Shown: in pieces, positions 1,308 through 34,600 of the stretch | How the letters are laid out: each line of letters opens with the position of its first letter | How positions within the stretch are numbered: position 1 is the stretch's first letter | Assembly (NCBI GenBank): GCA_013874835.1 | Contig: CP059430.1 | Location: 1,692,864 to 1,756,863, forward strand | From: Carnobacteriaceae bacterium zg-84 | GTDB lineage: Bacteria > Bacillota > Bacilli > Lactobacillales > Aerococcaceae | Length of the DNA stretch: 64,000 bases | Direction: 5' to 3' | Translations under genes and position numbers: made by a program | The notes under the pieces: model-generated | Told to the model about the DNA's origin: nothing | Database searches by the model: none | The model's input: the letters and a program-made list of their open reading frames with translations, nothing else

Positions 1308-2469
1308 GTTTCACACTCTTTTTCTTTAAGAATATCCCTACAATAACGAAAACAATGCCCCATACATACCCATTACTCAACAATTCACCTGTATGTGGTA
1401 ACCAACGCCCAATAAGATCAGGTGGTAAAGGTCTATTCACAATAATTGTCAGCGTATCATCTGTATATGATATAGGTGTAATCTCGAATGCAATATCTAC
1501 ACCCAATACAGCATATTCAACATTATCGACAATCGGTGCTTTTACTTCTCTTAAATAATATTTTCCATAAGGCAAATCCTGTACTTCAAAATATCCATTT
1601 TCCCCAGAGGTAAGAGTATATGTATGTCCACCTCTTAATAGTGGTTTTTTGTCAGCGTCTAACACTTCAAAAACAGCACCTTGTAAAGCCTTAGCGGGTG
1701 TTTGTTCATTCACTTTCTTAAATCGTTTCCCTCCAAAATGTGTTGGGTGATTTTCTATCGCAATATTCGTCACGTCATTCGCTTTAATCATAATCATTGG
1801 TGTATCTGTTAATAGTTGATACCCCGGCAACGCTTTGACTTCTTTGATAATATATTCCCCTTCAGCAAGACCGAAAATACGAATATTTCCCATTTCATCA
1901 GTGTTTAATACCGTTTCTCCGTCTGCATCAAGTGTTGCTAAGCCGTTTTTCACATGTACAATCTCATTATTTTTTGTATACAAAGAAAAGGCAACATTCG
2001 CTAGTGGTGTTCGCTCTTTTCCTTGTTGTTCATATTTAAACAAATGTAATTCTCCTGTTGGATGAAATTGCTTTGCATGAATCGTTTTATTTTCAAAATC
2101 ATTCCCTGTTAAATCAATAAAAAAAGGTACAATTTCTGTTATAGCAAGCTCTGTTTTTTCAGATACTGCCAGTACATAATACAAGCCTCTCTCCAACTGG
2201 ACTTTATAGGACTGGTCATTTAATGACACAACAGATGCAGTATATTTATTTTTCAAAGTGTGCAAATCTTGCGTTTTCACCCAATCTACTTCAGACTGGT
2301 CTGCTCCAATTTTAAACAGATGATATTGAATATCTTGATTATTGGCAAAAGCATTCGGACTAATAATTTCAATCGTTACCGTATCATTTGCATGCGCATG
2401 ATTAGAAAATGGTAAACAGACAAACGCAATCAACACACATATTCTTTTGACTAATTTAGAAAATGTCAT
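1282..2469 (-). CDS. Ancillary pilin / SpaA-domain LPXTG surface protein
   Basis: 395-residue exported protein with an N-terminal signal peptide (about 1-27) and a C-terminal sorting signal LPHTG at 357-361, followed by a hydrophobic helix and charged tail. The middle holds SpaA/Cna-B-like modules: repeated GKRFKK and E-box-like segments (IIKEVKALPGYQLL, YYLREVKAP) that in this fold support isopeptide bonds. It lies between the backbone pilin and the sortases and is shorter than typical tip adhesins, so a minor or basal pilin is the likely role (inference). A terminator-like hairpin just upstream could lower its expression relative to the backbone pilin. Confidence 0.85.
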   Translation of the reverse strand: MTFSKLVKRICVLIAFVCLPFSNHAHANDTVTIEIISPNAFANNQDIQYHLFKIGADQSEVDWVKTQDLHTLKNKYTASVVSLNDQSYKVQLERGLYYVLAVSEKTELAITEIVPFFIDLTGNDFENKTIHAKQFHPTGELHLFKYEQQGKERTPLANVAFSLYTKNNEIVHVKNGLATLDADGETVLNTDEMGNIRIFGLAEGEYIIKEVKALPGYQLLTDTPMIMIKANDVTNIAIENHPTHFGGKRFKKVNEQTPAKALQGAVFEVLDADKKPLLRGGHTYTLTSGENGYFEVQDLPYGKYYLREVKAPIVDNVEYAVLGVDIAFEITPISYTDDTLTIIVNRPLPPDLIGRWLPHTGELLSNGYVWGIVFVIVGIFLKKKSVKHDNEENQN

Positions 2470-32432: not shown

Positions 32433-33689
32433 ATGTACGATGTAATTGTCATTGGTGGTGGTTCAAGCGGATTAATGGCTTGTGTTTCTGCTGCAAAGAC
32501 GGGTGCCAAAGTTTTACTCCTAGAAAAAAATGCTTCTTTAGGACAGAAACTTTTATTAACAGGTGGAGGACGTTGTAACATTACAAACAATCGCCCTGCT
32601 GAAGAAATTGTAGCACATATCCCAGGAAACGGACGTTTTTTATATAGTGCTTTTTCTCAATTTGATAATTATGACATTATTAAATTTTTTAAGGAAAATG
32701 GCGTGACCTTAAAAGAAGAAGATCACGGTAGAATGTTTCCAACAACTGATAAAGCAAGAACTATTTTAGATACTTTTATTTCTTTGATTAAACAACATGG
32801 CATACATGTACAAACAAAAAATACTGTTTCTAATCTCTTATTTGACGAAAATAAAGTATGTGGCGTTCATCTGGAAGACGGAACAACTATTCATGCTAAA
32901 AGCGTTATTATTGCTACTGGGGGGAAATCTATCCCAAAAACAGGTTCAACAGGCGACGGCTTTAAATGGGCAGAACAAGCAGGACATACGATTGTTCCTT
33001 TATTCCCAACTGAAGTCCCTCTCACATCAAGTGAGCATTTTATTCAACAAAAAACATTACAAGGTTTATCTTTAAGAAATATTTCATTGAGTGTACTAAA
33101 CCAAAAACAAAAACCAATTATTTCTCATCAAATGGATATGATTTTTACGCACTTTGGTATTTCGGGTCCTGCTGTACTAAGATGTTCCAGCTTTGTATAC
33201 AAAGAACAAAAAAAACAAAAGAAAAATGACATACACATGCACTTAGATTGTCTACCAGATATATCTATCGGGCAGCTTGAACAGGACTTTATGAAACACC
33301 AAAAAGAACAAAGTAAAAAAGAAATCAAAACCATTTTAAAACAATACATTCCTGAACGTTTGGCTCTTTTTTACTTAAATCAAGCCAATCTTATACCTGA
33401 AACGCCATTACAAACATTATCTCATCAAGACATAAAACATATTTGTCATCTACTAAAACATTTCACTTTTACGGTTAATGGCTCTTTACCCCTTGAAAAA
33501 AGTTTTGTCACTGGCGGAGGTGTAAACACAAAAGAAATCAATCCTAAAACAATGATGTCTAAATTAAAAGAAGGCCTATACTTTTGTGGAGAAGTACTTG
33601 ATATTTACGGTTACACCGGTGGATACAATATTACATCTGCTTTTGTCACAGGTTATTTAAGTGGCTTTCATGCCGGACAACAAAAATAA
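32433..33689 (+). CDS. FAD-dependent oxidoreductase of the HI0933/BaiN family
   Basis: 418-residue flavoprotein. The N-terminal dinucleotide fold is VIGGGSSGLMA; GGGRCNITN is characteristic of this family. A second Gly-rich segment (IIATGGKSIPKTGSTGDG) and the C-terminal CGEVLDIYGYTGGYN with FVTGGGVN complete the FAD site. Physiological substrates are mostly unknown; some relatives reduce steroid or thiol-linked compounds. AAAGGAAA precedes the ATG. The stop codon falls on a decayed ISL3-like end. Confidence 0.88.
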   Translation: MYDVIVIGGGSSGLMACVSAAKTGAKVLLLEKNASLGQKLLLTGGGRCNITNNRPAEEIVAHIPGNGRFLYSAFSQFDNYDIIKFFKENGVTLKEEDHGRMFPTTDKARTILDTFISLIKQHGIHVQTKNTVSNLLFDENKVCGVHLEDGTTIHAKSVIIATGGKSIPKTGSTGDGFKWAEQAGHTIVPLFPTEVPLTSSEHFIQQKTLQGLSLRNISLSVLNQKQKPIISHQMDMIFTHFGISGPAVLRCSSFVYKEQKKQKKNDIHMHLDCLPDISIGQLEQDFMKHQKEQSKKEIKTILKQYIPERLALFYLNQANLIPETPLQTLSHQDIKHICHLLKHFTFTVNGSLPLEKSFVTGGGVNTKEINPKTMMSKLKEGLYFCGEVLDIYGYTGGYNITSAFVTGYLSGFHAGQQK

Positions 33690-33715: not shown

Positions 33716-33748
33716 TTCCCTCTATCAACATGATTTATGATAAACTCA

Positions 33749-33776
33749 AAGAGCCGACCACGCGGTCGGCTCTTTT
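33749..33776 (+). terminator. Terminator of the flavoprotein gene
   Basis: GAGCCGACC (33751-33759) and GGTCGGCTC (33764-33772), 4-nt loop, then TTTT. Confidence 0.9.
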
Positions 33777-33787
33777 CATATCGCTAT

Positions 33788-34036
33788 AAAAAATAAGAGC
33801 AGTTAGAAACTAACTACTCTTACGGTTATAATAGGGGTCTAAATCAAAAGGGGATAAGATTTAGAACAAACAAGTATAGTTAGAAAAAATTCATTATCAT
33901 TCAGCAATAGAACAAAAGGGGAGAATTCTATGCAATGATAAATGACTTTTATCAAACTATGACACATAAGCATAAAATGATTGAAAAAGGGGGAACAATC
34001 ATTTTATACCCAATCAAAGGACGTAATCCTTTGACT
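33788..34036 (-). ncRNA. Candidate small regulatory RNA with three UCCCC loops
   Basis: No protein reading frame. Read on the minus strand from about 34036: a 5' hairpin (TCAAAGGA stem, 34014-34034); hairpin with 12-bp stem 33972-33983/33996-34007 and loop UUCCCCCUUUUU; longer hairpin 33891-33912/33926-33945 with loop UUCUCCCCUUUUG; hairpin 33838-33845/33858-33865 with loop UUAUCCCCUUUU; and a terminator stem of 13 bp (33794-33806/33810-33822) with one mismatch and six U. A promoter with extended -10 lies just upstream. All three loops expose C4-5U4-5, complementary to Shine-Dalgarno-type AAAAGGGG. This resembles the logic of Listeria LhrC or staphylococcal UCCC-loop RNAs, but I know no homologue. 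Confidence 0.82.
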
Positions 34037-34042
34037 TGATAA

Positions 34043-34071
34043 ATTATAGCACATTATTTTTTATTTGTCTT
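34043..34071 (-). promoter_or_regulatory. Promoter of the small RNA
   Basis: Minus strand: -35 AAGACA (34066-34071), 17-bp spacer ending TGTGC, extended -10 TGCTATAAT (hexamer 34043-34048). The predicted start is near 34036. Confidence 0.78.
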
Positions 34072-34566
34072 TAAAAAAAATAAAATTTTTATAATTTTTT
34101 ATAAGAAAATTATTTTTTCTTAATGTTCTATTATTTTAAGCTCTCTACGATTAAAAATCTTATGTTTCAGAAGAAACAATCCCATTTATTATGTCTTTTA
34201 CGCTAACTTTTTGTTATATTACATTAAAAAATAAAAAATATAAATAATCCTTTTTTAATAAGCGTTTTTATTTGTTTCAATACGTAAAAAATATACATTT
34301 TATACAATTAAAAAATACTCACTCGCTCACCACTATAAAAGAAATATCTGTCATTATACGATGCATTTTCAATAGTACAAATAGAAATATAGCCATTATC
34401 ATCATTTTATGAGCATAACCATATTTTTCAAATAAACTAGCACACATATTAGATATAGTAGAAAATAATCATACATGCTTTTATCAAAATCATTCCGTAG
34501 ATTTCCTAACATACTATTTAAAAAATAAAAAAGTACTAAATAACTAATAAATGCCTTTCATTATCT
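34072..34566. other. AT-rich intergenic stretch, no gene seen
   Basis: Runs of A and T without a supported reading frame, hairpin or repeat. It separates the small RNA from the NlpC/P60 gene and may be the decayed interior of an ISL3-derived element. Confidence 0.5.
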
Positions 34567-34568
34567 AA

Positions 34569-34600
34569 ATCTCTCCACCCACACGATTTGACACAGAAAA
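34569..34600 (-). repeat. Decayed ISL3-type right end
   Basis: On the minus strand it reads TTTTCTGTGTCAAATCGTGT, then GGGTGGAGAGAT, resembling the ISL3 end. The 8 bp outside it (TAAAAAGA) match the 8 bp outside the 33689 copy (CAAAAATA) at six positions, but both are A-rich. Confidence 0.55.

Follow-up and report, generated by a model that had tools for sequence, protein, structure and literature searches.

The minus strand of the 64,000-nt stretch of the Carnobacteriaceae bacterium zg-84 genome analysed here (the window) carries, at positions 34071-33788, a small RNA locus in which a promoter is followed by a 5' hairpin, three hairpins named A, B and C, a CCCC linker and a terminator. The promoter (34043-34071) consists of a weak -35 element, AAGACA (34071-34066), and the -10 element TATAAT (34048-34043), separated by a 17-nt spacer with an extended TG; from the -10 element, the transcript is predicted to start near 34036 and to reach a length of about 245 nt. 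The 5' hairpin, formed by UCAAAGGA...UCCUUUGA (34012-34036), has a loop that is not C-rich. Hairpin A (33968-34011) has a stem of 16 bp and the loop UUCCCCCUUUUU (33995-33984), hairpin B (33874-33963) an imperfect long stem with the loop UCUCCCCUUUU (33924-33914), and hairpin C (33838-33865) the stem CUAAAUC/GAUUUAG closed by the loop UUAUCCCCUUUU. They are followed by a single-stranded linker (33824-33837) that contains the C-tract ACCCCU, with an unpaired probability of 0.84, and by an intrinsic terminator (33788-33823) made of a 14-pair hairpin (33823-33793) and a U-tract. All these features lie on the minus strand, and the RNA gene is convergent with a plus-strand gene for a baiN-like (HI0933) flavoprotein (32433-33689). 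A preliminary description had proposed an unannotated small RNA with a promoter and a terminator of its own, and both signals were found, the extended -10 promoter at 34071-34043 and the 14-pair terminator with its T-tract. Just past the RNA terminator, positions 33740-33770 form a strong GC-rich hairpin, AAAGAGCCGACCGCGTGGTCGGCTCTTT, which probably serves the convergent baiN-like gene as terminator. Upstream, about 500 nt of very AT-rich sequence devoid of ORFs of at least 50 aa (34080-34600) separate the RNA promoter from the terminator of a PcsB-like NlpC/P60 gene (34642-35880).

The predicted RNA folds with a minimum free energy of -74.6 kcal/mol versus -34.0 +/- 3.9 kcal/mol for shuffled sequences (z -10.3, with 0 of 200 shuffles as good), confirming the series of hairpins described earlier, although these had been counted as four and the stem-loops number five when the terminator is included. 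The three near-identical loops are all present as originally quoted: CCCCUUUU is common to the apical loops of hairpins A, B and C, and the threefold occurrence of CCCCTTTT was not reproduced in any of 2000 dinucleotide shuffles of the RNA. The four tracts of at least three C in the window RNA are all unpaired (P 0.84-1.00); one of them, the fourth tract, which precedes the terminator within the linker (33837-33834), had escaped the preliminary description. C-tracts are absent from the terminator loops of this RNA and of both homologues described below. The region had also been said to hold no reading frame; in fact a 44-codon ATG frame exists within it, but this frame lacks a Shine-Dalgarno (SD) sequence and is not kept in the sister species. 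A search of the whole window with Rfam, including relaxed thresholds, gave nothing credible at the RNA locus.

The genome of the window (G000; 1.91 Mb, one contig) was compared with those of two further species of the genus, G001 and G002, and the RNA is present in all three species examined. In G001 the location is equivalent: the RNA gene faces the baiN homologue beside murE in convergent orientation. The RNA is composed there of a 5' hairpin, three hairpins with the loops UUACCCCCUUUU, CCCCCCUUUUU and UCCCCCUUUU, the linker UUUCCCU and a terminator (z -6.7). The RNA gene was not found at the baiN locus of G002. Its copy there is a shorter form of 137 nt with an amidase gene on one side and an mscL-like gene on the other, both named by eye from their translations; this intergenic region (L306:1511-1647 and L004:2754-3286) holds an RNA with one hairpin fewer. 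It was found by a covariance model built from the G000 and G001 RNAs, with an E-value of 0.12 that is weak alone; the copy is regarded as certain because the 26-nt hairpin C pattern is matched with 0 mismatches and the architecture agrees, and its fold reaches a z of -8.9. The G002 RNA carries the UCCC loops CUCCCUUUU and UCUCCCUUAA, and two further CCC tracts are single-stranded. Equivalents of the 5' hairpin are formed by GUUCAAAC/GUUUGAAC in G001 and by CUUCAAA/UUUGAAG in G002, and the linker is replaced at the same place by AUCCCUC in the latter. The homologue promoters read GTGACA-17-TAAACT and ATGTAA-17-TACAAT, each with a TG before the -10, so that the 17-nt spacer and the TG-extended -10 are common to the three promoters. 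Terminators that differ in sequence from that of the window end both homologues too. Over the three species the RNA measures 137-253 nt and forms four or five stem-loops, and the C-tracts of the hairpin C loop and of the linker are unpaired in every case. The locus is very probably a real, conserved and previously undescribed small RNA.

Comparison of the three sequences also bears on the earlier proposal that the loop, and not the stem, is the functional part. The loop of hairpin A is kept in G001 with a changed stem, and no such hairpin exists in G002. In the three-species alignment, which covers hairpins B and C, five of the six apical pairs of helix B have changed on both sides with pairing maintained in every cell, a result equalled by 2 of 500 shuffles. 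Helix C shows no variation, with 14 of 14 stem bases identical while the G002 loop differs. The proposal thus holds for hairpins A and B, where loops are kept and stems change, and fails for hairpin C. At the modest but clear level that three sequences allow, the pattern suggests that hairpins A and B conserve their loops and retain their stems simply as stems, and that the sequence of the hairpin C stem is itself constrained. The homologues were also checked for the reverse situation, stems retained with loss of the C-rich loops, which had been put forward as evidence against the proposal, and the claim survived. Sites complementary to the hairpin C stem arm GGGNNAAGATTT numbered 12 in the three genomes, small RNA loci excluded, versus 28 for a reversed control, and none was convincing at a start codon.

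The phylogenetic range of the RNA appears narrow under searches whose stricter filters and three-sequence model can miss distant relatives. Within the family, the three-loop pattern and model R1 were run on 76 genomes and located it in this genus alone; at the level of the order, 395 genomes from about 80 genera were screened with the hairpin C pattern and with model R2, which gave no convincing copy beyond the genus. When up to three mismatches were allowed, the hairpin C pattern had six single matches outside the genus in the 395 genomes, fewer than the ten of its reversed version used as control. In a blastn comparison with 60 relatives, the region matched only itself and, by chance, one stretch of 34 nt. 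Several candidates were discarded. At least 118 stretches in GTDB contigs matched the three-loop pattern; those inspected included no homologue, being tandem repeats, arrays of a CRISPR-like kind or sequences whose folds lacked the loop arrangement. Regularly spaced matches in Bacillaceae looked promising at first, but were tandem repeats. Weak model matches in G080 and G017, as well as matches in G143, G344, G311/G314 and G020, had a fold unlike that of the window RNA.

The likeness to LhrC put forward in the preliminary description was borne out by the G001 homologue, for which LhrC (RF00616) was the sole match among 4227 Rfam families at E<=1. The match scored 31.6 bits, far below the Rfam gathering cut-off of 110 bits, with an E-value of 0.0033 when 261 bases were searched and of 0.079 for 6.3 kb; its alignment spans hairpin C, the linker and the terminator, with hairpin C corresponding to LhrC stem-loop A. 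RF00616 did not match the window RNA or the G002 RNA. In the reverse direction, among the sub-threshold matches of model R2 outside the genus, inspection left one intergenic small RNA candidate, in G048, at a locus where Rfam recognises two LhrC genes (112.5 and 125.8 bits); because of these calls G048 is taken to be a Listeria. Model R2, built from three RNAs only, gave three LhrC-like sites there with 20-26 bits, versus 15.5 for the best unrelated match in the 64-kb window. The third site (L409:1501-2341, positions 2067-2115, minus strand) lies between the two recognised copies of this presumed Listeria and scores 22 bits with model R2, with no Rfam call at gathering.

The members of the LhrC family (LhrC1-5, Rli22 and Rli33-1; RF00616) share with the RNA described here a stem-loop with a CUU(n)CCCCUUUU-type loop, a single-stranded CCC linker, a strong terminator, a G-poor composition and about three to four equivalent C/U seeds. 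The C-tract of the linker appears as ACCCC in the window, as UUUCCC in G001 and as AUCCC in G002, the U being missing from the linker of the window alone. According to its published description, LhrC4 has CUCCC and four U at three sites, namely loop A, the single-stranded stretch and the loop of the terminator (PMC4132741), and the G002 RNA fits this closely in seed sequence. The differences lie in architecture and copy number: LhrC RNAs have two stem-loops in 105-121 nt (PMC8079631) versus four or five in 137-253 nt here, where the RNA has a 5' hairpin in addition and as many as three hairpins with C-rich loops; LhrC1-5 display UCCC in the terminator loop, whereas the terminator loops here lack the motif; and seven siblings exist in L. 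monocytogenes versus one copy found per genome here. LhrC is induced by LisRK under envelope stress, and no LisR consensus is known (PMC4132741). The RNA probably resembles LhrC in its way of working, with a distant kinship possible, while staying short of membership in the family. The reading as a true but distant LhrC homologue from outside Listeriaceae, with hairpin C and stem-loop A as the common core, is tentative and in our view somewhat doubtful; since the part shared with LhrC is largely a C/U loop, convergence on the same seed explains it as well as descent does. RsaE/RoxS and other staphylococcal UCCC-loop RNAs also have repeated UCCCC seeds able to bind SDs (PMC9217828), but they differ in architecture and the RNA here has no Rfam match to them. 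The CiaR-dependent csRNAs of Streptococcus are small RNAs of the same order whose several copies act additively, as cited in PMC4132741; no Rfam match connects them with the RNA here, which is single-copy and shows no CiaR-type repeat upstream by eye.

The UCCC motifs of LhrC, RsaE, RNAIII, SprD and FsrA are reported to mediate target binding, in several cases at SDs (PMC4132741, PMC9217828, PMC8079631). The RNA of the window has the architecture of such UCCC-seed repressors, with a predicted promoter and intrinsic terminator of its own and predicted unpaired C-rich seeds. By analogy, it is likely to be a trans-acting, multi-seed, SD-pairing small RNA of the UCCC kind. Its own promoter and terminator would yield a transcript of about 245 nt that presents G-poor, C/U-rich seeds in the form of three CCCCUUUU apical loops and a single-stranded CCCC linker. 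Purine stretches rich in G (RRRRGGGG), located at SDs or close to them, would be the pairing partners of these seeds, and ribosomes would be kept from loading, in the manner of LhrC on lapB and oppA; several equal seeds would permit one RNA to use alternative seeds or to bind more than one mRNA. Transcription, base pairing, direction of regulation and targets are what we infer from these features, and occlusion of the SD is suggested by the studied relatives in function.

Candidate targets were assessed with pattern matches and 400-kb samples of genome. Repression of several mRNAs had been raised as a possibility, which found no support in the genome of the window, where the loops prefer ribosome-binding sites (RBSs) no more than shuffled loops do (5 sites below -18 kcal/mol among 324 sampled RBSs versus a shuffled-loop mean of 5.7). 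In G001 there is a weak excess, with 16 strong loop-RBS sites versus 8.1 for shuffled loops. Genes with an AAAGGGG SD are enriched in G001 for exported or membrane proteins with hydrophobic N-termini (17 of 32 versus 90 of 320, p=0.004, by a crude hydrophobicity rule and with three paralogous SpaA-like genes counted), and they include SpaA-like, YSIRK, GH84 and GH101 proteins and, by eye, lipoprotein-like sequences. In G000 this enrichment was not seen (3 of 9, p=0.37) and no class was prominent; AAAGGGG SDs are scarce in this genome (1 of 325). The strongest duplex found in G000 has -24.9 kcal/mol and joins loop A to the RBS of the gene for a PTS lactose/cellobiose IIA protein (start at G000:C1:86871). 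Such an extreme value is expected because the site was picked from a genome-wide pattern search, and the gene is a candidate, not a target. A PGA_cap capsule-like gene (G000:C1:144528) and the cas9 gene mentioned below complete the list of first candidates in G000. Among candidate genes of G000 and G001 with plausible starts, one similar pair only was found, a GNAT acetyltransferase with 29% identity. Other sites were recorded in passing. Three near-identical SpaA-like surface protein genes of G001 (L264, L290 and L300) have the common RBS GGAAAGGGGAAUA, well placed for CCCCUUU pairing. The cas9 gene of G000 (L398; G000:C1, near 1360133) has the SD AGGAGGGG, a possible loop pairing site. Near-identical transposase-like gene copies of G000 (L343, L349 and L353; MFYKETHPNDEIILN...) in some cases carry the RBS AAAAAGGAGGGAAAAA, which pairs well with the loops.

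Other explanations can be weighed against the same observations. The C-rich loops could be decoys that titrate an RNA-binding protein, such as a KH-domain or cold-shock protein, since a protein site present in repeats would be expected to show near-identical loops on more than one stem and a stem as invariant as that of hairpin C; we regard this as improbable, because the drift of the motif between species from CCCCUUUU to CUCCCUUUU suits pairing, two of the four G002 sites lie outside hairpins, and LhrC, which the model searches gave as the nearest family, is an mRNA-pairing RNA. Pairing with mRNA 5' regions away from the SD, altering stability and not translation, is reported for LhrC on tcsA and would agree with loops that have no general RBS preference in the genome of the window; most studied UCCC seeds act at SDs, however, which makes this account unlikely as well.

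Less probable still is that the RNA chiefly pairs with a G-rich small RNA, in the way in which the UCCCC motifs of RsaE bind the GGGG motifs of RsaI (PMC9217828): the same chemistry is possible in the window RNA, but RsaE acts on mRNAs too. It is scarcely credible that the locus contains hairpins but has no function as RNA, or that it encodes a small peptide. The 44-codon frame could be read in favor of a peptide, but it has neither an SD nor conservation, and fold z-scores below -6 in three species, co-variation, and conserved loops and terminators argue against a lack of RNA function. A UCCC-type small RNA that would pair with SDs through several seeds is the reading that we favor.

The principle is a known one, not a new one, and the RNA fails Rfam LhrC membership, yet LhrC is the nearest family found. 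If it were a true homologue, LhrC-type RNAs would be old in Lactobacillales, gaining or losing seed hairpins, with a seed that follows the SD usage of each genome. The RNA supplies a concrete candidate regulator for a genus from which no description of such a small RNA was found, as well as an outgroup to the Listeria LhrC RNAs that bears several equal seeds in one molecule. Since the number and sequence of these seeds vary between sister species (CCCCUUUU versus CUCCCUUUU), it lets one ask why UCCC RNAs have redundant seeds and whether the seeds co-evolve with Shine-Dalgarno usage.
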